64,000 nucleotides of DNA from Herbidospora daliensis. GTDB lineage: Bacteria > Actinomycetota > Actinomycetes > Streptosporangiales > Streptosporangiaceae. Location: assembly GCF_001570585.1 (NCBI RefSeq), contig NZ_BBXF01000005.1, positions 496,001 through 560,000 of the forward strand, given 5' to 3'. Position 1 is the stretch's first letter. The number at the start of each line of letters is the position of its first letter. The translations under genes were made by a program, and so were the position numbers. The notes under the pieces were generated by a model, which saw nothing but the letters and a program-made list of their open reading frames with translations, was not told the DNA's origin and searched no databases. Positions 1 to 39,030 of the stretch are shown piece by piece.

Positions 1-63
1 CTGATCGATTGACCGCAATCGGCCGCATGTCCGGCAAGGTCGGCAGCTCCTACGTTGGGGCGC

Positions 64-456
64 ATGCCGTATTCCTACGGGGTCACCGCACACTCCCAGG
101 CCCCTCCTGACGCCGTCTTCGCGGCATTGGTCCACGCGGCCACCTGGCCCCGTTGGTCGCCGATCGACTCCGCCGACGTGGAGAACGGCGACCCCGGCGA
201 CACCTGGACCTTCCCCAGCAGCCGGAACGTCTCCCGGAAGCGGATCGTCGCGCTGATCGACGACCGGCGGTTACCTCGGCGCCCCTTCCGCTCGTACCGG
301 GGCACCGTCGATCTCTCCCCCGCGCCCGGCGGGGGCACCCCCATCACGTGGTCGGCCACTTTCTGGACCTGGTACCTGACCCGCTTCATGCAGCGCATGG
401 TCGACGGCCTCGCCGCGTACCCCGACCACCCACGACACGAGAAGGACACCCGATGA
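64..456 (+). CDS. SRPBCC-family protein, shortened
   Basis: A small START/SRPBCC (polyketide cyclase/dehydrase-like) protein of about 130 residues. The N-terminal APPDAVFAAL...WPRWSPID stretch and the later SYRGTVDLSPAPGGGTPITWSATF and FMQRMVDGLAAY stretches are typical of the fold. Family members are usually about 145 residues. Here the segment between the two halves (IDDRRLPRRPFRSYRG) and the loop after SATF look shortened, so the ligand cavity may be altered. I chose the ATG at 64; a TTG nine bases upstream is also in frame. Its stop overlaps the start of the DUF2306 gene (ATGA), so the two are probably cotranscribed. No ligand can be assigned. Confidence 0.75.
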   Translation: MPYSYGVTAHSQAPPDAVFAALVHAATWPRWSPIDSADVENGDPGDTWTFPSSRNVSRKRIVALIDDRRLPRRPFRSYRGTVDLSPAPGGGTPITWSATFWTWYLTRFMQRMVDGLAAYPDHPRHEKDTR

Positions 457-1127
457 GGAACCGCAGCCGCAGATGGTGGGTCTTATGGGGGCTGATGGCG
501 CTGTCGGCGGTCGGCTTCGCCGTAGGGTCGGTGCCGCCCTATCTGACCGGGAACGCCGAGAGCGCTCCCCTGCCGCTCAACCCCGACGTGGCGCTGCACT
601 ACCTGTCCCTGGCGGTGCACGCCCTGCCGGGCGGGCTGGCCCTGGCGCTCGGCCCGCTGCAGTTCGTCACCCGCCTCCGCATCAGCCGGCCCAAGCTGCA
701 CCGGGTTATCGGCCGGGTGTACATGATCTCGATCGTGGTCGCCTCGATCGCGGCCGCGGTCAACGCGGCGATCACGATCAGCGGCTTCGCCGTCCAGGTC
801 GCGTTCTACATCCTGGTGGCGGCCTGGTTGTACACCGTGGCCATGGCCTACCGGTGCATCCTCCGCGGCGAGGTGCAGCTGCACCGGATCTGGATGATCC
901 GCAACTACACGCTGACGTTCGCCGCCGTCACGCTGCGTGTCTACTTCCTGCTCGGCCTCCAGGTCGCCCCCTCGCTGGGGTTCGAGGCGATCTACACCGC
1001 CTCCGTGTGGGCGTCGATTTTGGGCAACGTCCTGGTGGCGGAATATTTCATCGTCCAGCGTCTGCTGGCCCCCTTGGCTCGCCGCGAACAGCGCCGGGAA
1101 GCGCCGACTTTCGCGGCGACGCGCTGA
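453..1127 (+). CDS. DUF2306 integral membrane protein
   Basis: A predicted membrane protein of 224 residues starting MRNRSRRWW and overlapping the upstream SRPBCC gene by four bases. Hydrophobic segments occur near residues 9-27, 47-70, 85-110, 112-130, 145-165 and 175-200. The HRVIGRVYM and HRIWMIRNYTLTFAAV stretches, with paired histidines next to membrane helices, are typical of the DUF2306 (YozB-like) family. The family has no established reaction; the conserved histidines suggest possible haem or metal binding, which is inference. The overlap implies coupled translation with the SRPBCC partner. Confidence 0.85.
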   Translation: MRNRSRRWWVLWGLMALSAVGFAVGSVPPYLTGNAESAPLPLNPDVALHYLSLAVHALPGGLALALGPLQFVTRLRISRPKLHRVIGRVYMISIVVASIAAAVNAAITISGFAVQVAFYILVAAWLYTVAMAYRCILRGEVQLHRIWMIRNYTLTFAAVTLRVYFLLGLQVAPSLGFEAIYTASVWASILGNVLVAEYFIVQRLLAPLARREQRREAPTFAATR

Positions 1128-1223
1128 GGTAAACGATCCGCCCTCCCCGCGAGCTTTACCTGCTGACGGGAAGTTTTGGCTGGTCAACGGGGTTCCTTGA
1201 CCTGTGGAGGGAGGGGAGGATCG

Positions 1224-2729
1224 ATGGGAAGATGGAAACGGGCGTCGTACCGCGCCCGCAGAACGGTAGCCACAGGTGTGGTCATGGCATTCATGTGCCT
1301 GGGGCTCAGTTTGCTCTTCTTGATGTACGTCGGCGGCAAGGAAAGCGACAGCGCCCTCCAGCAGGGCCTCTCCGCCTGGAACGACGTCGAACCCCTGATC
1401 CAGCAGGAGCGACTGCCCCCCGTCCTGCCGCATGACTTCAACGAGGCGATCCAGGTCGTGGACCCCCGCGGCAACGTCGCCGCGGCCAGCAGCCAGCTGA
1501 CCGGCGCGCCGCCGATGGCGACCTTCCACCCCACCCACGGCAAACTGAGCACCACCAAGATCCTCTGCCCGCCGGCCGGACTGGCGGGCTGCAGCACCGT
1601 CGCGTCGATCAACGTCGACCAGCCCGACGGCCTCTGGTCCCTGTACGTGGCGACCCCCACGGTCCCCTGGTACGGCAGCACCACCGCCGTGTTGCTGGCG
1701 ATCGGCACGTCCCTGCTGATGACGGCTGCCGTCACCGCCTGGGTGTTCCGCGACATCTCCAAGGCCGTCGAGCCGGTCTCCGCGATCCAGCGGCAACTCG
1801 CCGACATCACCGCCGCCCACCTCGAACACCGGGTCCCCGTCCCCGACGCGTACAAGACCTACGAAGAGGTGACGGTCCTGGCCAAGACGGTGAACGCCAC
1901 CCTCGACCGCCTGGAAGCGGCCTACGAGCGCCTGCGGCGCTTCACCTCCGACGCCTCCCACGACCTGCGCAGCCCGATCACCGCCATGCGGCTCCACCTG
2001 GACGAGGCCCTCGCCTACCCCAAGGAGTCCGACTGGCCCGAGGTCGCCACGAAGGTCATGGCCGGCGTGGAACGCCTCCAGGCGATCGTCACCGACCTGC
2101 TGGCCCTGGCCCGCCTCGACGCCGGCGCCCCCCTCAACGGCGAACCCACCGACCTGAGCGCGCTCGCCGCCGCCGAACTCGACCAGCGCACCCACGGCAC
2201 GACGATCGTCCGCCGCCTCCAGAAGGGCGTGTGCGTCGACTGCGACCGCCTGCGCATCTCCCGCGTCCTGGTCAACCTCCTCGACAACGCCGAACGCCAC
2301 ACCACCTCCCGCATCACCGTCACCGTCCGCGCCGAGAACGGCACCGCGATCCTCGAGGTCCTGGACGACGGAGACGGCGTGGCCGCCGCCGACCGCGAAC
2401 GCGTCTTCGAACGCTTCACCCGCCTGGACGCCGCCCGCGACCGCGACTCGGGCGGCACCGGCCTCGGCCTGGCCATCGCCAGGGAGATCGCCCACGCCCA
2501 CGGAGGCACCCTGACCATCGAGGACAGCCCCCGGGGGGCCCGTTTCGTCCTCCGCCTCCCCCAGTGCCCCGGCACCCGCGAGACGCGCAGCCAGACCGTG
2601 CCGACACCGGCGGACGGCCCGAACCGTCACCCATGGCCCGACTGGCTGAGAAGGGCGGTCATCATGAACGACCGGGGCCAGATCACCAAGGGCATGCTGA
2701 ACCCGGCCCGGCAGCAGTCGCGCTGGTGA
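1224..2729 (+). CDS. Sensor histidine kinase (orphan)
   Basis: A 501-residue membrane sensor kinase. The start at 1224 is preceded by a strong GAGGGGAGGA ribosome site; an in-frame start 48 bases upstream lacks one. Order: TM1 (about 16-36), extracytoplasmic sensor region to about 150, TM2 (about 154-176), HAMP linker, HisKA with the phosphorylated His near residue 246 (SDASHDLRSPITAMRL), and HATPase_c with N box (NLLDNAERH), DDGDGV, FERFTR and the GTGLGLA glycine lid. After the ATPase domain there is an unusual charged tail of about 50 residues with no family match that I recognise. No response-regulator gene is adjacent on either side within the window, so its partner is unknown. Confidence 0.93.
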   Translation: MGRWKRASYRARRTVATGVVMAFMCLGLSLLFLMYVGGKESDSALQQGLSAWNDVEPLIQQERLPPVLPHDFNEAIQVVDPRGNVAAASSQLTGAPPMATFHPTHGKLSTTKILCPPAGLAGCSTVASINVDQPDGLWSLYVATPTVPWYGSTTAVLLAIGTSLLMTAAVTAWVFRDISKAVEPVSAIQRQLADITAAHLEHRVPVPDAYKTYEEVTVLAKTVNATLDRLEAAYERLRRFTSDASHDLRSPITAMRLHLDEALAYPKESDWPEVATKVMAGVERLQAIVTDLLALARLDAGAPLNGEPTDLSALAAAELDQRTHGTTIVRRLQKGVCVDCDRLRISRVLVNLLDNAERHTTSRITVTVRAENGTAILEVLDDGDGVAAADRERVFERFTRLDAARDRDSGGTGLGLAIAREIAHAHGGTLTIEDSPRGARFVLRLPQCPGTRETRSQTVPTPADGPNRHPWPDWLRRAVIMNDRGQITKGMLNPARQQSRW

Positions 2730-2733
2730 ACCT

Positions 2734-4257
2734 TCAAGCGACGAGCAGACGCAGCCCCAGCTCGGCCACGTCGAGACCGGCGAGGTGGCCGTTGCGTTCG
2801 GCCCATCGACCGGATGCGAGATCTGCACGGAGGTCGTTCACCACCCGGTTCTCGACTTCGGGGCCGACACGGGCCCAGATCGACATGCCACTGCGGATGT
2901 GCTCGTCGAGGTAGGCCTCGGGGCGGCGCCAGAAGGCGTGGTAGAACCCGTCGACGCAGTCCCAGGGGACGAGCACCGGCTCGGTTCTCGCCCCGATCGC
3001 CTCGGCCAAATCACTGAGGGAGGGGCGGTCTGCCCAGAGGGCGGCGAACTCAGGTAGGTAGTCGCGATTGAGCCAGAACAGGTCGGCGGCACTGGGGTCG
3101 CAGGTGAACACGACCACGCGGCGAGCGACCCGCCGCATCTCACGGAGACCCGCGATCGGATCCGGCCAGTGGTCGATGGTGGCGAACGCCATCGCCGCGT
3201 CGAACGAGTGGTCCGCGAAGGGGAGGTTCTCCGCGGTGGCGTCGATGCACGGCGCTGCACCGGCGGGGCGCTGGGCCCGCATGACCGCCGACGGCTCGAC
3301 TGCGGTCACCTCGAAATCATGGGGTCCGGTGTCAATTTGCTTTATGGCCGCGCGAATCGCCTGCTCAGCGGGGGCTGACGGCTTGCAAGGCCCGGTTTCT
3401 GCTGACGTAAGGGCGGGGCGAGATGCCCGCTCAGCGGGGCCTGGCGGCTCGTGAGGCCCGGTGCCTGCTGACGTGAGAGCGGGGCGAGATGCCCGCTCAG
3501 CGGGGCCTGGCGGCTCGTGAGGCCCGGTGCCTGCTGACGTGAGAGCGGGGCGAGATGCCCGCTCAGCGGGACCCGGCGGCTCGTGAGGCCCGGTGCCTGC
3601 TGACGTGAGAGCGGGGCGAGATGCCCGCTCAGCGGGACCCGGCGGCTCGTGAGGCCCGGTGCCTGCTGACGTGAGAGCGGGGCGAGATGCCCGCTCAGCG
3701 GGACCCGGCGGCTCGTGAGGCCCGGTGCTGGACGGCCTCGGGGTGAGGTGAGGTGCCTGCTCAGCGGAGCTTGGAGCCTCGTAAGAGGCGGCACCGGCTG
3801 GCTTCAGTACCGCGCGAAGTGTTTTGTCCTCTGGGTGCAGCGGCTTGGAGGATCGAGTGTCCGCTGACTTCGGGGATGCGGGAAGAGTCTGCTTGGTGGA
3901 GCCCTCGAACTGGTGAGGCACAGTGTCGGCTGGCTTCAGGACCTCGCGAAGTGCCGGCTGCCCAGCAGAGCCTGGAGGTTCGTGAGGGCCGGTACCTTTT
4001 GGCTTCAGGGCCGGGGAAAGTGCCTGATCAGCGGGGCCGGGGGGCTCGCGGGAGTCGATGCCGGCCAGCTTCAGCGCCGCGCGAGATCTCTGCTCAGCGG
4101 AGCTTGGAGGCTCGTAGGACCCGGTGCCCGCCCCAACGTTCAGAACCGTTCGTGCATCGCCGAGTGCGGCCCAGACCTGCCGGGCGATGCGCGGCTCGGT
4201 GCGCCGGGTCAGGTTGTAGGTGGTGCCGATGGCGTCGTACAAGTGTCTACTGGACAT
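2734..4257 (-). CDS. Class I SAM methyltransferase with internal repeat insertion
   Basis: A 507-residue protein starting MSSRHLYDAIG after an AAAGGCGG ribosome site. Residues 37-50 hold SAM motif I (VLNVGAGTGSYEP). After about 266 residues of tandem repeats the fold resumes with VTAVEPSAVM (motif II acid, about residue 320), DATAENLPFADHSFD and AFATIDHW, ending at residue 507. Without the insertion the protein would be about 241 residues, the usual size of methyltransferase_11 enzymes. The repeats (residues 44-309) sit exactly between beta-strand 1's glycine loop and beta-strand 2, so they would loop out of the cofactor site. The gene converges on the histidine kinase, with four bases between stops. 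The methyl acceptor is unknown. Whether the enzyme still binds SAM is uncertain. Confidence 0.85.
   Translation of the reverse strand: MSSRHLYDAIGTTYNLTRRTEPRIARQVWAALGDARTVLNVGAGTGSYEPPSSAEQRSRAALKLAGIDSREPPGPADQALSPALKPKGTGPHEPPGSAGQPALREVLKPADTVPHQFEGSTKQTLPASPKSADTRSSKPLHPEDKTLRAVLKPAGAASYEAPSSAEQAPHLTPRPSSTGPHEPPGPAERASRPALTSAGTGPHEPPGPAERASRPALTSAGTGPHEPPGPAERASRPALTSAGTGPHEPPGPAERASRPALTSAGTGPHEPPGPAERASRPALTSAETGPCKPSAPAEQAIRAAIKQIDTGPHDFEVTAVEPSAVMRAQRPAGAAPCIDATAENLPFADHSFDAAMAFATIDHWPDPIAGLREMRRVARRVVVFTCDPSAADLFWLNRDYLPEFAALWADRPSLSDLAEAIGARTEPVLVPWDCVDGFYHAFWRRPEAYLDEHIRSGMSIWARVGPEVENRVVNDLRADLASGRWAERNGHLAGLDVAELGLRLLVA
3331..4128 (-). repeat. In-frame 66-bp minisatellite inside methyltransferase
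   Basis: Twelve units of 22 (twice 23) residues in tandem. Five (3397-3726) are nearly identical at DNA level with an exact 66-bp period; the other seven (3727-4128 and 3331-3396) are diverged. The consensus begins TGPHEPPGPAE and ends RPALTSAG. Each unit starts with a copy of the host motif-I tail (GTGSYEP-like), and the last partial copy TGPHD runs directly into the next host strand. The DNA unit contains the hairpin CCCGCT-C-AGCGGG. Because 66 is divisible by three and no stops arise, copy-number change would keep the frame. Confidence 0.95.
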
Positions 4258-4911
4258 CAGACCGCCTTTGTCCGGGCGGCAGATCATGCGGCAGCCGCCA
4301 CCTTGGCATATGCGGGTCGAAGCTCCTGTTGCCAGGTTCTCCCAAGGCCACCGACAAGTCATGTGGCCGTCGCTCGGACCAGGATCATCCTCGACCATCA
4401 GACCTGAGCGCCCATGGCCATCCTCTGGTCCGCTGAGCGTTGTCGCGCACCGTCTCGAATAGCAGCGGATCTGCCCCCTGTCGGTGCGGCGATGTGCGAC
4501 AGGGCTCTTGGCGACGGCAAGGAACCGAAGATCTCAACTCGAGCTCCAGCGAGTTACCCCCTTCCGATGTTCACATCACCCCGCCGAATGGCACTGCGCC
4601 TGCACCCCGTACCTGCCGGGCGGCGTACCTGCCGGGCGGCGATCTTGATGGGTTCGCACCCAAGCCTCGCCGCATGCGCCAGGCGTTGCGGCTGCGTTGG
4701 AGTTTGGTCCGGGTGGCGGCGAGCTGCGTCTGTGCCGGGCCGGTTCGTTGGCGGACAGCGGCGTGCCCGTACGGGGTCGGCGTCCGCTGCGTTCGTGGCT
4801 GCATGTCATCAACGATTACCCACTCATCTGTATGAGGTCACGCTGCTCTGAGCGGATCCGCCGCAGGCGGATTAGGTCATGTCGCAGCAGGCGGCCTCAC
4901 ATGATGGACGC
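4258..4911. other. Gene-free stretch upstream of clpP operon
   Basis: About 650 bases with no convincing gene; the open frames here have no recognisable protein character. It contains a perfect 16-base direct repeat (CGTACCTGCCGGGCGG twice in tandem, about 4608-4639) and, near its right end, the palindrome described separately. It should contain the promoters of the methyltransferase (leftward) and the clpP operon (rightward), but no clear -35/-10 pair could be fixed by eye. Confidence 0.5.
4856..4872. promoter_or_regulatory. Candidate PopR/ClgR-type operator
   Basis: ATCCGCCGCAGGCGGAT is a perfect 7-3-7 palindrome ending 39 bases before the first clpP start codon. As I recall the literature, the Streptomyces clpP3 clpP4 activator PopR binds palindromes of the form TCTGCC-N3-GGCAGA. 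The site here, TCCGCC-N3-GGCGGA, has the same length and spacing with one symmetric change. A PopR/ClgR-like gene lies just past the operon. Binding is inferred. Confidence 0.55.
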
Positions 4912-5538
4912 ATGAGCGATGAATCGAAATCCCCTTTGTTCGACGTGCAGGTGCGGCGTAGGCTTTACGAGCAGCGGACGCTCGTTCTCGACGGTCCTCT
5001 CGACGACGACAACGGCACTCTTCTCACCACGCAATTGATAACCCTCGCGATGGAGGATCCGTCGGCCGACATCGCATTGTGGATCCATTCGCCGGGTGGT
5101 TCCGTGCCGTCGATGCTGGCGATCCGTGACGTCATGCGGCTGATTCCGTGTGACGTCGCGACGCTGGTGCTGGGCATCGCCTACAGCGCCGGCCAGTTCC
5201 TGCTCTCCTCGGGCGCCCGGGGCAAACGTCGCGCTCTGCCGCACGCCCGGGTGCTGATGCACCAGGGGTCGGCCGGCATCGGCGGCACCGCCGTCGACAT
5301 CGAACTGCAGGCCAGCGACCTGCGCCACACCCGCGACACGGTGCTCGGCCTCATCGCCGAAGACACCGGCCAGCCCGTGGAGCGCATCTTCGACGACTCC
5401 CTGCACGACCGCTGGTATACGGCGCAGGAGGCCCTCGACTACGGCTTCATCGATTCGATCGTCAGCGATTTCGGCGAGATCGCGCCACTCGCCCAGCATC
5501 GGCTCGGTTTCGGCGTCACCGAAGGAGCGGCCCGATGA
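4912..5538 (+). CDS. clpP: ATP-dependent Clp protease proteolytic subunit (active-type)
   Basis: A 208-residue ClpP serine protease subunit that would form a tetradecameric chamber with a Clp ATPase (ClpX/ClpC). The triad is intact by alignment to the family: Ser92 in GIAYSAGQ, His117 in VLMHQ and Asp166 in LHDRWYT. The oxyanion/substrate strand SPGGS is at 60-64. The sequence around the serine (YSAG) departs from the common AASMGA. I chose ATG 4912 (MSDESK); an upstream in-frame ATG at 4879 overlaps the palindromic region. The next gene starts within its stop (ATGA). The pairing with a second clpP and a PopR-like gene suggests the conditional clpP3-clpP4-type system of actinomycetes rather than the housekeeping clpP1P2 pair. 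Confidence 0.93.
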   Translation: MSDESKSPLFDVQVRRRLYEQRTLVLDGPLDDDNGTLLTTQLITLAMEDPSADIALWIHSPGGSVPSMLAIRDVMRLIPCDVATLVLGIAYSAGQFLLSSGARGKRRALPHARVLMHQGSAGIGGTAVDIELQASDLRHTRDTVLGLIAEDTGQPVERIFDDSLHDRWYTAQEALDYGFIDSIVSDFGEIAPLAQHRLGFGVTEGAAR

Positions 5539-6131
5539 GCACGTACACCATCCCCAACGTCATCGCCCGCAATTCACGTGGCGAGCGCATTCTCGACGTC
5601 TATTCGCATCTACTCACGGAGCGAATCGTCTATCTGGGCACGGCCATTGACGCGGGCGTCGCGAACGCCCTCATCGCGCAATTGATTTTCCTGGAGTCCG
5701 ACAATCCCGACGCCGAAATCCAGTTCTACATCAACTGCGAGGGCGGCGATCCGAGCGCGATGCTCGCGATCTACGACACGATGCGGTACATCCGCCCGAA
5801 GGTCGCCACCACCTGTGTCGGCCAGGCCATCGCGGTGGGCGCGGTGCTCTTGGCGGCGGGCGCGGAGGGGAAACGTTCGGCCCTTCCGCACGCACGGGTG
5901 GTCCTGCACCAGCCGGCCGCCCAGGGTCGCGGCGCGATCCCCGACCTGATCCTGCAGGCCGACGAGGTCGTGCGGGTCCGGGCCGACATCGAGCGCATCT
6001 TGTCGCGGCACACGGGCCAGACCGTCGAGACACTCCGTGCCGACACCGACCGCGACCGGGTGTTCACCGCGACTGCGGCGATGGAGTATGGGCTCCTCGA
6101 CCAGATCATCGAGGAGCACTCACGCAAGTGA
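5535..6131 (+). CDS. ClpP paralogue lacking the catalytic serine (ClpR-like)
   Basis: A 198-residue ClpP-fold protein translationally coupled to the preceding clpP. Strong ClpP features include ERIVYLGTAID, LIAQLIFLES, ALPHARVVLHQP (His125) and TDRDRVFTA (Asp174). At the position of the nucleophile the usual GQAASMGA reads GQAIAVGA, so the serine is Ala100. If the reading is right, this subunit cannot form an acyl-enzyme and would act as a structural or regulatory ring partner, as ClpR does in plastids and cyanobacteria. The rest of the gene looks under normal constraint: no stops, normal length, and His and Asp retained. Confidence 0.9.
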   Translation: MSTYTIPNVIARNSRGERILDVYSHLLTERIVYLGTAIDAGVANALIAQLIFLESDNPDAEIQFYINCEGGDPSAMLAIYDTMRYIRPKVATTCVGQAIAVGAVLLAAGAEGKRSALPHARVVLHQPAAQGRGAIPDLILQADEVVRVRADIERILSRHTGQTVETLRADTDRDRVFTATAAMEYGLLDQIIEEHSRK

Positions 6132-6207
6132 TGTCGCGGCCCTCGTGGCGGACTGCGGGCGCTCGACCTGGCGGGGCCCTCCGCAGCAGGCGGCGCCGGC
6201 GGTCTGG

Positions 6208-6540
6208 TTAGGCGGCAAGCAGCGTGACTCCCAAGGAGCCGCTCTGCGCCGCCCGCAGATTCTCGGTCACGGCGGAGGTCAGCTCGATCAACGTGATCTC
6301 CAGCGCCCCGGCGACCGCGGCGATCATCTCGCTCGACGGCTCTTTGAGGCCCCGTTCCATCTCGGAGAGGTACTGCGGCGAGACCCCGGCGCGCTGGGCC
6401 GTCTCGGCCAGCTTCTCACCACGCTCGTGGCGGATCTCCCGGAGGCACTCACCGAGCGCCTCCCGCCACAGCGGCTCCCGGGCGGGCTCCGGCTCGCTTC
6501 GATCGCTCACCCGCCGCAGCGGCGTAACAGAGGAGGCCAT
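6208..6540 (-). CDS. ClgR/PopR-like XRE regulator with C-terminal LAA
   Basis: A 110-residue XRE-family regulator. The helix-turn-helix at about residues 33-80 reads LREIRHERGEKLAETAQ..VSPQYLSEMERGLKEPSSE, very like ClgR/PopR, which control clp genes in actinomycetes. The protein ends VTLLAA; a Leu-Ala-Ala tail resembles the ssrA-type degron, and ClgR and PopR are known ClpP substrates degraded through alanine-ended C-termini. It lies tail-to-tail with the clpP pair, 76 bases apart. The likely circuit is activation of the clpP operon and destruction of the activator by Clp protease; this is inference. A generic XRE repressor is the alternative. Confidence 0.8.
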   Translation of the reverse strand: MASSVTPLRRVSDRSEPEPAREPLWREALGECLREIRHERGEKLAETAQRAGVSPQYLSEMERGLKEPSSEMIAAVAGALEITLIELTSAVTENLRAAQSGSLGVTLLAA

Positions 6541-6975
6541 GCCTCACCATAAACAGCCACCGAGCCGCCGTCGCGGCCTCTTCGCGCACAGCACAACCGG
6601 AACCACACCGCCCAGGTGCCGGGTGGGTGGAGCAGAGAAAGCAGCACGTAGTGGTCCGCAACCTCATCTGCGACCTCCCGGAGCGCCTCCTCGGCCCACT
6701 CGACCGCCTCGGATAGCAGCACGTGCTGGTCCGCAACTTCATCCGCGCTTAGGCCGGCGACACGGTGCGCAAGACGCTCCTGACAAATACGGGATCCGCG
6801 GTTGTCGAGGCCAAGGACCTCGACAACCGGATCATCTGCGGCGACCTGCACGTCGACATCGTCCACACTGCTGTGCAGCCTGCCGCCTTCGGTAGCTCAG
6901 GCCTCGGTCGAAGAGCGATTTACACACTGCCCAACACGTTGAAGAGCTTCAGGCGATCCGAGTTTGGTCGCGTGA
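6541..6975. other. Gene-free stretch with diverged direct repeat
   Basis: About 435 bases without a recognisable gene. Two imperfect copies of a roughly 35-base sequence (around 6640-6678 and 6715-6750, sharing GGTCCGCAAC and AGCAGCACGT) lie about 75 bases apart, and a strong hairpin follows (separate entry). The minus strand translates a short open frame with a duplicated ADEVAD..VLLS phrase, which looks like a decayed coding fragment. Confidence 0.4.
6793..6833. repeat. Long near-perfect inverted repeat
   Basis: Arms GGTTGTCGAGG (6800-6810) and CCTCGACAACC (6818-6828) pair perfectly around a seven-base loop (CCAAGGA). They extend through GATCC (6793-6797) and GGATC (6829-6833) with a two-base bulge, giving 16 pairs in 41 bases. 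No T-run follows on either strand, so a Rho-independent terminator is not supported. It lies between the PopR-like gene and the hydrolase gene and is not explained by either. Confidence 0.7.
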
Positions 6976-9009: not shown

Positions 9010-11162
<2,153 letters not shown>

Positions 11163-15458: not shown

Positions 15459-17780
15459 CTACCGAGCGGTACAGGTCATCACGGTGGGGCTCGTGTTGGC
15501 GCCGCTCCAGGCGCCGTTGAACCCGAAGGACGTGGTGCCGCTGGGGGTCAGCGCGCCGTTCCAGGACAGGTTCGCCACGGTGACGGTCGAGCCGCTGGTG
15601 GTGTGCGCGCCGTTCCACAACTGCGTGATGGTCTGGCCGTTGGGGAACGTCCAGGCGACGGTCCAGCCGGTCAGCGCGACGGTGCCGGTGTTCTTGACCT
15701 CGACGGAGGCTCCGAAGCCGGTCGGCCACTGGTTGACGAGGGTGTAGGTCGCGGCACAGGCCCTACCGGAACTGGGCGACGGACTGGGCGACGGACTCGG
15801 TGACGGTGACGGACTCGGTGACGGGGAAGGGCTCGGGGAAGGGCTCGGCGAGGGCGACGGGGACGGACTGGGGGAAGGGCTCGGCGAGGGTGACGGAGAC
15901 GGGCTCGGCGAGGGTGACGGGGACGGGCTCGGGCTCGGGCTCGGGGTGGCGGGGCCGGCCTTCTCCGCCGTCCACGCACTCACCCAGGCCAGGACGGCGT
16001 TCCAGTTGATGGCGACCTCGTTCACCGACCAGGCGTCGATGTCGTCCAGATAGCACTTCTGCGGCCGGCAGCCGCTGAGGCGCTGCTGGGCGACGGGGTC
16101 CTGCAGGCCGCTGTTGGGGCCGCCCGCCAGCGAACCGGGCGGTGCGATCGGCAGGGAGGAGTCGAGCTGGTTGGCCCAGAACCGGTGGTGCACGTTGCGG
16201 GAGGGCTTGTCGCCGTATCCGGTGACGTAGGAGTAGCCCATCGGGTTACGGCCGAACTCGTAGGCCATCGTCTCGAACACCCCGGCGCGGAACCGCTCGG
16301 CGCCGGTGAAGTCGTGGGCCAGGGCGAGCAGCACCGCGTTGTTGAGGATGAGGTTGTTGGACCCCCAGATGTACCCGCCGCCGCCGGGCTGGAAGGGCAC
16401 CGGGTAACCCTGGCCGCGCATCACGTTCAGCAGGCCGTCGGCCGCCGAGACGAAGGAGGCGCGCAGCTGCTGGCCGATGGAGGAGGTGAGCCCGTTGGGC
16501 ACCAGCGCCAGGGTGATGTCGCCCAGGCTGCCGACCTCCGACCACTGGGCGCCCTCGTTGGTGAAGCTGCGCCCGTAGTAGGACGAGGAGGAGGTCAGGT
16601 CGTTGCGGTAGGTCTGCTTCCCGGTCGTGGTGTACAACTCGGCGGCGGCCCAGTAGAACTCGTCGCTCACCTTGTTGTCGACGTACGAGCCGCCGCCGAC
16701 GTCATCGGAGGTGGGGGCGAACCGGGAGGGGTTGGCCTTGGCCGCGGTGTACGCCTTCTCCGCGGCGGTCAGGCAGCGCGCGGCGAAGGCGGAGTCGATG
16801 GCGGCCCAGACCCGGGCGCACTGGGCGGCGGCGGCCGCCAGGTTCAGGGTGGCGGCGGTGGAGGGGGCCGACAGCACCCGGGGCTGCGGGTCCTGGGCGG
16901 GCAGCAGGGGCAGCCCGGTCCAGTTCGTGTCGTGGATCTTGTGGTGCGCCATGCCGGCCAGCGGCCGGCCGTCGGGGACCTGCATCTTCAGCAGGAAGTC
17001 GATCTCCCAGCGGGCCTCGTCGAGGATGTCGGGCACCCCGTTGCCGCGCTCGGGCACGGACATGGTGCCGTCGGCGAAGGCCGTGGGGTCGGCGCCGGAG
17101 ACGTTCCTGGCCCGTTCGTAGGCGTTGACCAGCTGCCAGGCCGACATGCCGCCGTTGACCACGTACTTGCCGTGGTCGCCGGCGTCGTACCAGCCGCCGC
17201 GCACGTCCAGCCGGTAGCCGCAGTCGCTGCGGCACGGCACGTTGGCGTCGCCCTGGTTGGGGGCGACGTTCAGGTGGCCGGCGGCGCGGGCGTACTGGCC
17301 GCCGCCGGCGAGCTGGGAGGTGATCGCGATGCCGCTGCGCTGGTGGTAGAAGAACGCCAGCGCGTCGTAGGGCAGCTTCTTCCAGGCGGCCGTGCCGATG
17401 TCGAAGGGGTGGCTGGACTCGTTGTTCACCGTCAGCACGAAGTTGCCGCCGGTCCCGGTGTACGACGAGAAGTCGATCTTGTGGACGTTGTCTCCCGACG
17501 GAGAGTCGGCGCCGAAGACGGTGGTGGTGCCGCTGGCCACCACCTGGTCGGAGCCGTTCAGCAGGTTCCAGGTCAGCGGCGATCCCGAACCGCTGACGAC
17601 GGTCGCGTGCTTGGCGACGCCGGGCGCGTAGGCGACCTGGTTGACCTTGATGTTCTGACCGAGCGCCGGGCGGGCGAGCGCGTTGGCGGTCTCGGTGGTG
17701 ACGATCGCGGTGATCGATGCCGCGGCCAGCGCGACGGCCAGTGCCGCCGCCGATAGCCGCATCCGGCCTGAGGTGTTCAC
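15459..17780 (-). CDS. Secreted GH9 cellulase with N-terminal Ig-like domain and CBM2
   Basis: A 773-residue secreted endo/processive cellulase. Order: signal peptide (about 1-35), CelD_N-type Ig-like domain (about 38-125, IKVNQVAYAPGVAKHATVV), GH9 catalytic domain (about 135-590) with the GGWYDAGDHGKYVV aspartates, HHRFWA and the C-terminal general-acid Glu in DAWSVNEVAINWNA, a very long Pro-Ser linker, and a C-terminal CBM2 with spaced tryptophans. The start is GTG 17780 after GAGAGGACTCC; the frame is open upstream but without a ribosome site. It is divergent from a LacI regulator with a LacI-type half-symmetric box between them, the classic cellulase-control layout. Confidence 0.95.
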   Translation of the reverse strand: MNTSGRMRLSAAALAVALAAASITAIVTTETANALARPALGQNIKVNQVAYAPGVAKHATVVSGSGSPLTWNLLNGSDQVVASGTTTVFGADSPSGDNVHKIDFSSYTGTGGNFVLTVNNESSHPFDIGTAAWKKLPYDALAFFYHQRSGIAITSQLAGGGQYARAAGHLNVAPNQGDANVPCRSDCGYRLDVRGGWYDAGDHGKYVVNGGMSAWQLVNAYERARNVSGADPTAFADGTMSVPERGNGVPDILDEARWEIDFLLKMQVPDGRPLAGMAHHKIHDTNWTGLPLLPAQDPQPRVLSAPSTAATLNLAAAAAQCARVWAAIDSAFAARCLTAAEKAYTAAKANPSRFAPTSDDVGGGSYVDNKVSDEFYWAAAELYTTTGKQTYRNDLTSSSSYYGRSFTNEGAQWSEVGSLGDITLALVPNGLTSSIGQQLRASFVSAADGLLNVMRGQGYPVPFQPGGGGYIWGSNNLILNNAVLLALAHDFTGAERFRAGVFETMAYEFGRNPMGYSYVTGYGDKPSRNVHHRFWANQLDSSLPIAPPGSLAGGPNSGLQDPVAQQRLSGCRPQKCYLDDIDAWSVNEVAINWNAVLAWVSAWTAEKAGPATPSPSPSPSPSPSPSPSPSPSPSPSPSPSPSPSPSPSPSPSPSPSPSPSPSPSPSPSPSSGRACAATYTLVNQWPTGFGASVEVKNTGTVALTGWTVAWTFPNGQTITQLWNGAHTTSGSTVTVANLSWNGALTPSGTTSFGFNGAWSGANTSPTVMTCTAR
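15768..15948 (-). repeat. Pro-Ser linker repeat in GH9 gene
   Basis: About 180 bases of low-complexity DNA (variants of GGGCTCGGCGAGGG and GACGGACTCGG) encode roughly 30 Pro-Ser dipeptides between the GH9 and CBM2 domains. The linker is unusually long and of the type prone to replication slippage. Confidence 0.85.
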
Positions 17781-37437: not shown

Positions 37438-39030
37438 ATGCAGCTGGTCGCACTGGCCCTGACGATCTCCGGATTCCTCAGCCCGGGACCGTCGGCTCAT
37501 CTGGAGGTGACCCCGCCACGAGGACAGGCGGGCGACGTCATCACACTCACCATGCACGATGCCGGCGAGTACTGCGGCGATCCCGGCCGGGCGATGCTCG
37601 GGGAAACGGAGCTACCCGGGGAGTGGCGGCACGAGTATCGGGCCGCTGACGAGACCCACGTCGTGATCACCACCTTCGAGGTGCCCGCGAACGTTCCCAG
37701 CGGGGATCTATCGGTGTCCGTCCGGCACGATCCGACGAATGAGCTGTGTCCGCAGGTTGAGGCGGTCGTCTTCAACGTCACGGATCCCCCGGACAGCCCG
37801 GATCCACCAGACAGCCCGGATCCACCGGACGGCCCGGATCCACCAGAGGGCCCGGATCCACCAGACGGCTCCGTTCCGCCGGGCCAGGTGGATCCGGAGC
37901 CGGTGACCACGACGCCCGCGCCACCCGCGGGCACCGTGACGATCACCCAGAGTCCGCCGGTTTCCGAACCCGCCGACGATCAGGTGTCGACCGGCCAGCC
38001 CATGACCGAGCGCCCGGCCCTCTCCCCCAGCCCGTCGCCCGGCCCTGAGATCTCCTCGCCCCCTCCCCCGCAAACGGTCACCTCACCGCTGCCGAGGGCT
38101 CCGTTGCCCGCCGGGCTGCGGCCGGTGGCCGATTACACCTGGGCCGCCTTGGCCCAGGCTGTGGTGCTGGCCGTTCTGCTGGCGCTGGGCATGGTGCTCA
38201 TCGGGTTCCCCGCGGAGTACTTCAACAAGCTGTACGAGACGCACCGTGACCGGCTGCGGTCGAAGCGGTGGAGCCTGCCGCCCCTGCGGTTGCCGCGGCC
38301 GCTGCTCCTGCTCGGGTCGGTGACCGCCGCCGGGGTGCTGTTCACCCTGGCCGGCGACGTCAGGCAGCCTGATCAGCTGTTCGGGTCGGTCGCCGCCTAC
38401 GCGGTCGCCTTCCTCGTCACCACGCTCGCCTACGAGGTGCCGATCGAGTTGCGTCACCGCGAGAAGGGCAACGGCGCGGGCGTGCTCAAGGCGGTGCCGG
38501 GGGCGTTGTTCGTCGCACTGGTCTGCGCGGGGTTGTCATGGTGGCTGGCGTTCTCACCCGCCTACCTGTACGGCGTGTTCGCCGTCTTCCTCGCGTCGGG
38601 GCGCACGGAACTCGACCGCGACGACGCGGGCCGGGCGGTGCTGACCGGCTGTGTGTCCCTGCTCGTCGTCAGCGGCGGAGCGTTCGTGATCTGGTCGTCC
38701 ATCGACGTGGGCACCCCTGCCACGATCGGCCTGTACGTCACGGATCTCGTGGTGGCGACGGTGTGGACCGCCGGAGTCCAGGCGGTGCTGTTCCTGATGA
38801 CGCCGCTCGCCTTCATGGACGGCCCGAAGCTGCTTCGCTGGCGTAAGGCGGCGTACGCCGGGGTGGTCGTCGTGGCGGGCTGCGGGTTCGCGTTCAGCGC
38901 GCTGACCAGGGATCCCCAGCCGTTCAACGGCGCCGAACTGGCCAGAGCCTGCTGGTTGTTCGGGGCCTTCCTGCTGTTCACCGGGCTGTTCTGGGCGGTC
39001 TGCGCCGTCCTGGCCCGTCGTGCACGGTGA
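37438..39030 (+). CDS. Membrane protein with Ig-like ectodomain and proline-rich stalk
   Basis: A 530-residue protein, not recognised by name. Signal-like start (MQLVALALTISGFLSPGPSAH), a beta-rich extracytoplasmic domain (about 21-115; VTPPRGQAGDVITLTM...GDLSVSVRHD, IPT/Ig-like), a Pro-rich stalk including five 6-residue DPPDSP-type repeats (about 116-220), then about eight membrane helices. After the first helix comes FPAEYFNKLYETHRDRLRSK, which recalls the F-x-x-x-F/Y-N-x-x-x-E-x-x-x-x cytoplasmic phrase of several streptomycete membrane proteins. It may couple a cell-surface sensor to a membrane module. No operon partner. Confidence 0.75.
   Translation: MQLVALALTISGFLSPGPSAHLEVTPPRGQAGDVITLTMHDAGEYCGDPGRAMLGETELPGEWRHEYRAADETHVVITTFEVPANVPSGDLSVSVRHDPTNELCPQVEAVVFNVTDPPDSPDPPDSPDPPDGPDPPEGPDPPDGSVPPGQVDPEPVTTTPAPPAGTVTITQSPPVSEPADDQVSTGQPMTERPALSPSPSPGPEISSPPPPQTVTSPLPRAPLPAGLRPVADYTWAALAQAVVLAVLLALGMVLIGFPAEYFNKLYETHRDRLRSKRWSLPPLRLPRPLLLLGSVTAAGVLFTLAGDVRQPDQLFGSVAAYAVAFLVTTLAYEVPIELRHREKGNGAGVLKAVPGALFVALVCAGLSWWLAFSPAYLYGVFAVFLASGRTELDRDDAGRAVLTGCVSLLVVSGGAFVIWSSIDVGTPATIGLYVTDLVVATVWTAGVQAVLFLMTPLAFMDGPKLLRWRKAAYAGVVVVAGCGFAFSALTRDPQPFNGAELARACWLFGAFLLFTGLFWAVCAVLARRAR
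37783..37872 (+). repeat. 18-bp tandem repeat encoding DPPDSP/DPPDGP stalk
   Basis: Five copies of an 18-base unit (GATCCACCAGACAGCCCG and variants) encode a hydrophilic Pro-Asp stalk. The unit stays in frame on change of copy number. Confidence 0.9.

Follow-up and report, generated by a model that had tools for sequence, protein, structure and literature searches.

A 66-bp in-frame minisatellite gained within a Herbidospora methyltransferase and probably tolerated by the enzyme

What becomes of an enzyme when its gene gains a long tandem repeat between two motifs of the cofactor-binding core, and from where does such a repeat arise? This question is raised by a class I SAM-dependent methyltransferase gene of Herbidospora daliensis (Streptosporangiaceae), carried on a 64,000-nt stretch of the 8.5-Mb genome that we refer to as the window; the repeat array itself lies inside a 1.08-Mb contig. 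An earlier note on this DNA had described a 66-bp in-frame minisatellite that parts motif I from the strand carrying the motif-II acid. The explanation that we regard as probable is a coding minisatellite that was born inside the gene and is tolerated by the enzyme. The features of the locus are collected in Table 1.

Table 1. Features of the methyltransferase gene and its repeat array, in window coordinates
Feature	Coordinates	Strand	Basis
Class I SAM-dependent methyltransferase gene	2734..4257	-	Pfam Methyltransf_11, homologues, nearest structure 3EGE
N-terminal segment through beta-1 to GAGTG (motif I)	4129..4257	-	43-homologue alignment; AlphaFold2 beta-1 at residues 37-41
Inserted DNA, 793 nt replacing 7 nt of the syntenic H. 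sakaeratensis gene	3313..4105	-	blastn against the H. sakaeratensis locus (L045)
Units 1-6, diverged (unit 3 = 69 bp)	3733..4131	-	Segmentation, identities, 27-mer matches
Units 7-11, near-identical, recent expansion	3403..3732	-	Tandem Repeats Finder, segmentation
Unit 12, diverged	3337..3402	-	Segmentation
Partial 13th copy (IDTGPHDF), joined to host strand E-VTAVEPS	3313..3336	-	Segmentation
Beta-2 with motif-II acid (VTAVEPS) and remaining catalytic domain	2734..3312	-	Invariant residues; blastn 84% to L045 and L049

The methyltransferase product is 507 residues long, counted from the ATG at 4257, which was chosen within the longest open reading frame (2734-4398, minus strand) for its alignment with the start of the homologues. 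These homologues are 66-84% identical to it, and the Methyltransf_11 profile (PF08241) matches the window protein with an E value of 2e-11, compared with 1.1e-13 for a homologue. Both sequence hallmarks of the class, the GxGxG of motif I and the acid of motif II, are conserved (GAGTG and VTAVEPS), and a Rossmann-like fold is predicted for the core by AlphaFold2 and matched by Foldseek (E 1e-15) to 3EGE, a putative methyltransferase from Anabaena that is the closest solved structure. Elsewhere in the window, positions 4879-6131 of the plus strand hold two consecutive ClpP-type protease-like genes of 198 and 219 residues that overlap by 4 nt, the first assigned by a PF00574 match (6e-53) and the second by eye.

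Tandem Repeats Finder reports a period of 66 bp with 5.6 copies and a 96% match at 3359-3728, and segmentation of the open reading frame extends the array to 12 minus-strand units spanning 3337-4131, all of 66 bp but for one of 69 bp. Each unit encodes 22-23 residues, and the array occupies the interval between motif I (GAGTGSYEPP) and beta-2, where the partial copy leads into VTAVEPS. A single reading frame runs through motif I, all units and beta-2 with neither a stop codon nor a frameshift, the sole change of length being +3, and the insert adds a net 262 codons. Tandem in-frame units in the 10-100 bp range are a hallmark of a coding minisatellite and are present here, and both the repeat and its position between the two motifs, the latter also seen in the homologue alignment, are thus as the earlier note had read them.

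The units are of unequal age. Units 7-11, which together span about 330 bp, differ from one another at 0-3 positions, with no difference at all between units 8 and 9 and further deviations in the opening codons of unit 7, while units 1-6 and 12 share about 45-71% nucleotide identity. Five near-identical and seven diverged units had been taken as a sign of both old and recent growth, and the unit identities bear this out. Third-position GC is 0.50-0.77 in the units against 0.84 in the host gene, so the coding bias of the host is absent from the array. Three shorter tandem repeats occur elsewhere in the window. Those at 10780-10862 (plus strand) and 15771-15946 (minus strand) encode Pro-Ser/Pro-Thr linkers of putative secreted glycoside hydrolases with a C-terminal carbohydrate-binding module and are ordinary linker repeats; at 37781-37886 (plus strand) an 18-bp repeat (CGGATCCACCAGACAGCC) encodes a DPPDSP-type linker in a predicted membrane protein.

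Assembly errors are known to arise at tandem repeats (PMC6868369), and a block of about 330 bp that includes two identical units exceeds many short reads, so that the array could in whole or in part be an artefact in which the copy number of the near-identical block is wrong. We consider this very improbable, given the seven diverged, unique units, the unbroken frame and the location of the array within a long contig. Doubt about the assembly applies only to the count of units 7-11.

The comparison with uninterrupted homologues, which the earlier note had proposed as a check, defines the array as an insertion. Among 100 relatives searched, 29 genomes carry the methyltransferase gene, and scanning GTDB contigs yielded 80 close homologues. 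GxGxG and the motif-II serine are spaced exactly 20 residues apart in all 100 matched homologue hits, a number that includes overlapping fetches of one gene, and none of these roughly 100 hits carries an insert at the position of the array, including the syntenic gene of H. sakaeratensis. The H. sakaeratensis locus shares the flanking DNA, with 84-90% identity over window positions 1-3312 and 4832-6600, and provides an empty site: the blastn alignment of the window stops and restarts at 3312/4106 across a gap at 3152-3160 of the subject. In the gene tree, the window and H. sakaeratensis genes are sisters with a support of 1.0. Given the fixed 20-residue spacing and the lack of an insert in the homologues, the array is a gain private to this Herbidospora lineage, made after its split from H. 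sakaeratensis. The methyltransferase gene itself is distributed patchily in the genus: three of six same-genus genomes are without a close homologue, two of them having no match and one only a 49% match. The copy in H. mongoliensis is much nearer to those of Acrocarpospora and Sphaerisporangium (dS about 0.15) than to that of H. sakaeratensis (0.39), a pattern of synonymous divergence that suggests horizontal exchange of the gene.

Did the repeat arrive as an element that also resides elsewhere? A profile of the unit, searched against the whole 8.5-Mb genome, recovers exactly these 12 units (E <= 2e-6), the next match having an E value of 0.18. Among 99 other relatives the profile found nothing convincing, with three single-unit matches at E 0.005-0.01 per genome; the array protein has no match in 296 other genomes of the class, nor the array DNA in plasmids, phages or viral contigs. 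The repeat unit is thus absent from the about 400 other genomes searched. Array DNA gives a few scattered matches of 23-50 nt in relatives (E about 1e-4 to 1e-3), which look like products of chance at high GC content; one of them simply corresponds to the conserved motif I of H. mongoliensis. Nothing significant was found for the array in Pfam or NCBIfam (two insignificant Pfam hits have E 0.4-0.9), and no match in Rfam. The suggestion of an unrecognised repeat element that recurs in other proteins or genomes was not sustained by these searches, and confinement of the unit to a single locus makes a moving repeat element unlikely.

The source of part of the unit lies in the host gene. Unit 1 opens with 27 nt that are the host's own motif-I tail, and 11 of the 12 units match this 27-mer at 18-27 positions; of the 126,193 other positions in the window only 2 score as high as 18 and none scores 19 or more. 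The earlier statement that a motif-I-tail copy stands at the start of every unit therefore holds for these 11; it fails for unit 4, decayed to 13 of 27, and applies to only 27 of the 66 nt. The remaining 39 nt have no match in the host gene or in the DNA flanking it. Six comparisons with flanking DNA on both strands and with the rest of the host protein gave no significant source, the lowest value being p = 0.06. Derivation from the segment just upstream of motif I was considered because of a resemblance seen by eye (LRAVLKP-AGTG against ARTVLNVGAGTG) and rejected, the DNA alignment being no better than those of shuffled sequences. The 27-nt homology and the unmatched 39 nt point to a start as a local duplication of the motif-I tail with filler.

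A hairpin, CCCGCT-C-AGCGGG, had also been noted in the unit. Recent units do contain this string, but relative to shuffled sequences the unit has no folding advantage (z = -0.4 on the coding strand and -1.5 on the other), and the hairpin was rejected as a driver of growth; with no excess of folding it is not needed, and slippage or unequal recombination would be enough. These results bear on a further explanation, namely that the gene received a mobile or palindromic coding element comparable to the Rickettsia palindromic elements or to PARCELs. In-frame insertion and the partial palindrome of the unit are what such an element would leave. The single genomic locus, the absence of the unit from relatives, plasmids, phages and viral contigs, the lack of folding excess, the host sequence inside the units and the lack of a DUF285/TIGR02167 match all oppose it, and this explanation, to which we give hardly any credence, is largely refuted.

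Whether the interrupted gene still encodes a working enzyme was addressed by examining selection on the host domain and on the array separately. All 89 residues that are invariant in 43 uninterrupted homologues are kept, as are 147 of 153 nearly invariant ones, in agreement with the earlier observation that the other core motifs are intact. In a codon model of the host domain, omega is 0.065 on the array-bearing branch and 0.107 in the background; a host omega of 0.3 imposed on that branch lowers the fit by 12.8 lnL. Models in which the final 25% or 50% of the branch evolves neutrally fall 13.4 or 22.4 lnL short of the one-ratio model. Within the array omega is 0.9-1.1, not different from 1, and no column is conserved across all units. 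The host domain is constrained and the array is unconstrained.

The relative timing of insertion and constraint can be approached through the old units, which have on average departed from their ancestor by about 1.0 neutral substitution per codon, or about half of the 1.9 accumulated over the whole branch, an estimate that assumes a star tree and equal mutation rates in the array and at host synonymous sites and that tandem turnover or gene conversion could mislead. From this proportion, the array was probably already present during much of the time over which the host was constrained and, on the equal-rate assumption, the enzyme has probably long been under selection with the array in place. 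The old units have accumulated about 150 substitutions with zero frameshifts and zero stops. Neutral simulations leave the array free of stops with a probability of 0.12-0.47, and the absence of stops alone is weak evidence of selection on the frame. In general, indels occur at roughly one-tenth the frequency of substitutions; if this ratio applies here, the absence of frameshifts is the stronger evidence.

Damage would ordinarily be expected when an enzyme receives a 262-residue insert 5 residues past GxGxG, and a neutral array can be stop-free by luck, so that the locus might be a pseudogene or a weakened gene that has merely not yet acquired stops. That history is improbable in view of the low host omega, the poor fit of a neutral final quarter of the branch and the intact invariant residues, and would be possible only if the array were much younger than its divergence suggests. 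On the same three grounds we infer that the enzyme is not dead and probably retains its activity.

How could a fold accommodate such an insert? In the AlphaFold2 model, residues 50-313 have pLDDT values below 50, and the array brings the mean over the full protein down to 52.8, a low value. Beta-1 (37-41), beta-2 (316-321) and most later core elements are nonetheless placed as in the model of an uninterrupted homologue, and Foldseek returns 3EGE first with either model. In the homologue, alphaA comprises residues 43-48 only and beta-2 begins at 54, which places the insert at the turn into beta-2. Alignment with 3EGE reveals four extra residues at this same alphaA-beta2 position, suggesting that this turn can accommodate insertions. 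The SAM of class I methyltransferases is bound at the C-terminal ends of the strands and the alphaA-beta2 turn faces away from the cofactor; by analogy, the array would exit on the face away from SAM. The description of the array as having invaded the SAM-binding core is accordingly correct in the linear sequence, whereas in the fold the array sits at the turn from a short alphaA to beta-2. The array is predicted to be a disordered loop, and disorder is a property with which tandem repeats in proteins are associated in general (PMC7230257).

The coding minisatellite tolerated by its enzyme can be set out as follows. After the split from H. sakaeratensis, a founding segment consisting of the 27-nt motif-I tail and 39 unmatched nt would have been duplicated in the Herbidospora lineage, and the array would have grown in steps of 66 bp (22 codons) by replication slippage or unequal recombination, with a recent burst giving rise to units 7-11. 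With a period divisible by three and a chain that would exit and rejoin the fold at the tight turn between alphaA and beta-2, the product would be a methyltransferase with a Pro/Ala/Ser-rich disordered loop of about 262 residues and an otherwise intact catalytic domain. Tolerance would follow from this exit point and from the maintained frame; selection would act on the reading frame and on the host domain and leave the loop sequence free. A tolerated loop had been one of the possibilities raised in the earlier note, and it fits the selection analysis and is the best-supported mechanism. Its alternative there was a functional expandable loop. On one such reading the length of the array and not its exact sequence would be functional, through a role such as partner binding, solubility or tuning of activity, and the recent expansion would have been favoured. 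The long persistence of the frame, the expansion of units 7-11 and the strong constraint on the host are compatible with it, but the units drift at an omega of about 1 with no conserved column, and no relative has an insert there; we think it unlikely. That the loop is selected as length-tunable within the SAM-binding core, with copy number altering activity or partners, is if anything a shade less likely; were it true, a core enzyme would possess an expandable dial.

How does this locus compare with known systems? The host domain is homologous over its full length to 3EGE (E 4e-34) and shares the fold of the PF08241 class I methyltransferases, but 3EGE has only a few extra residues at alphaA-beta2 and no 262-residue repeat. 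Rickettsia palindromic elements likewise leave open the conserved enzyme gene in which they are inserted in frame (PMC10969869). They are palindromic, about 150 bp long and dispersed in many genes, whereas the array described here is a single tandem locus, not strongly palindromic and partly of host sequence. PARCELs are tandem coding repeats with a similar unit length of 25 residues (PMC2996958); the array lacks their profile match, amphipathic pattern, dispersal and membrane-protein context. The array resembles bacterial in-frame coding minisatellites with units of 10-100 bp in its in-frame tandem units, the mixture of old and recent copies and the predicted disorder. In-frame minisatellites usually occur in surface proteins, linkers and tails. 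That tandem repeats can be in frame within coding regions is established (PMC6868369), and a literature search found, in the papers it covered, no precedent for an in-frame minisatellite within a bacterial enzyme core, although this does not prove that none exists. The coding minisatellite is therefore of a known kind and its position in a catalytic core is unusual. Unlike its counterparts in linkers, tails and surface proteins, it splits the SAM-binding core of an enzyme at a position where the spacing is invariant and homologues show no length variation, and it drifts neutrally inside a host domain under strong purifying selection. With dated growth, a syntenic empty site and a simple assay, it offers a natural experiment on the tolerance of a fold for insertion near its cofactor site.
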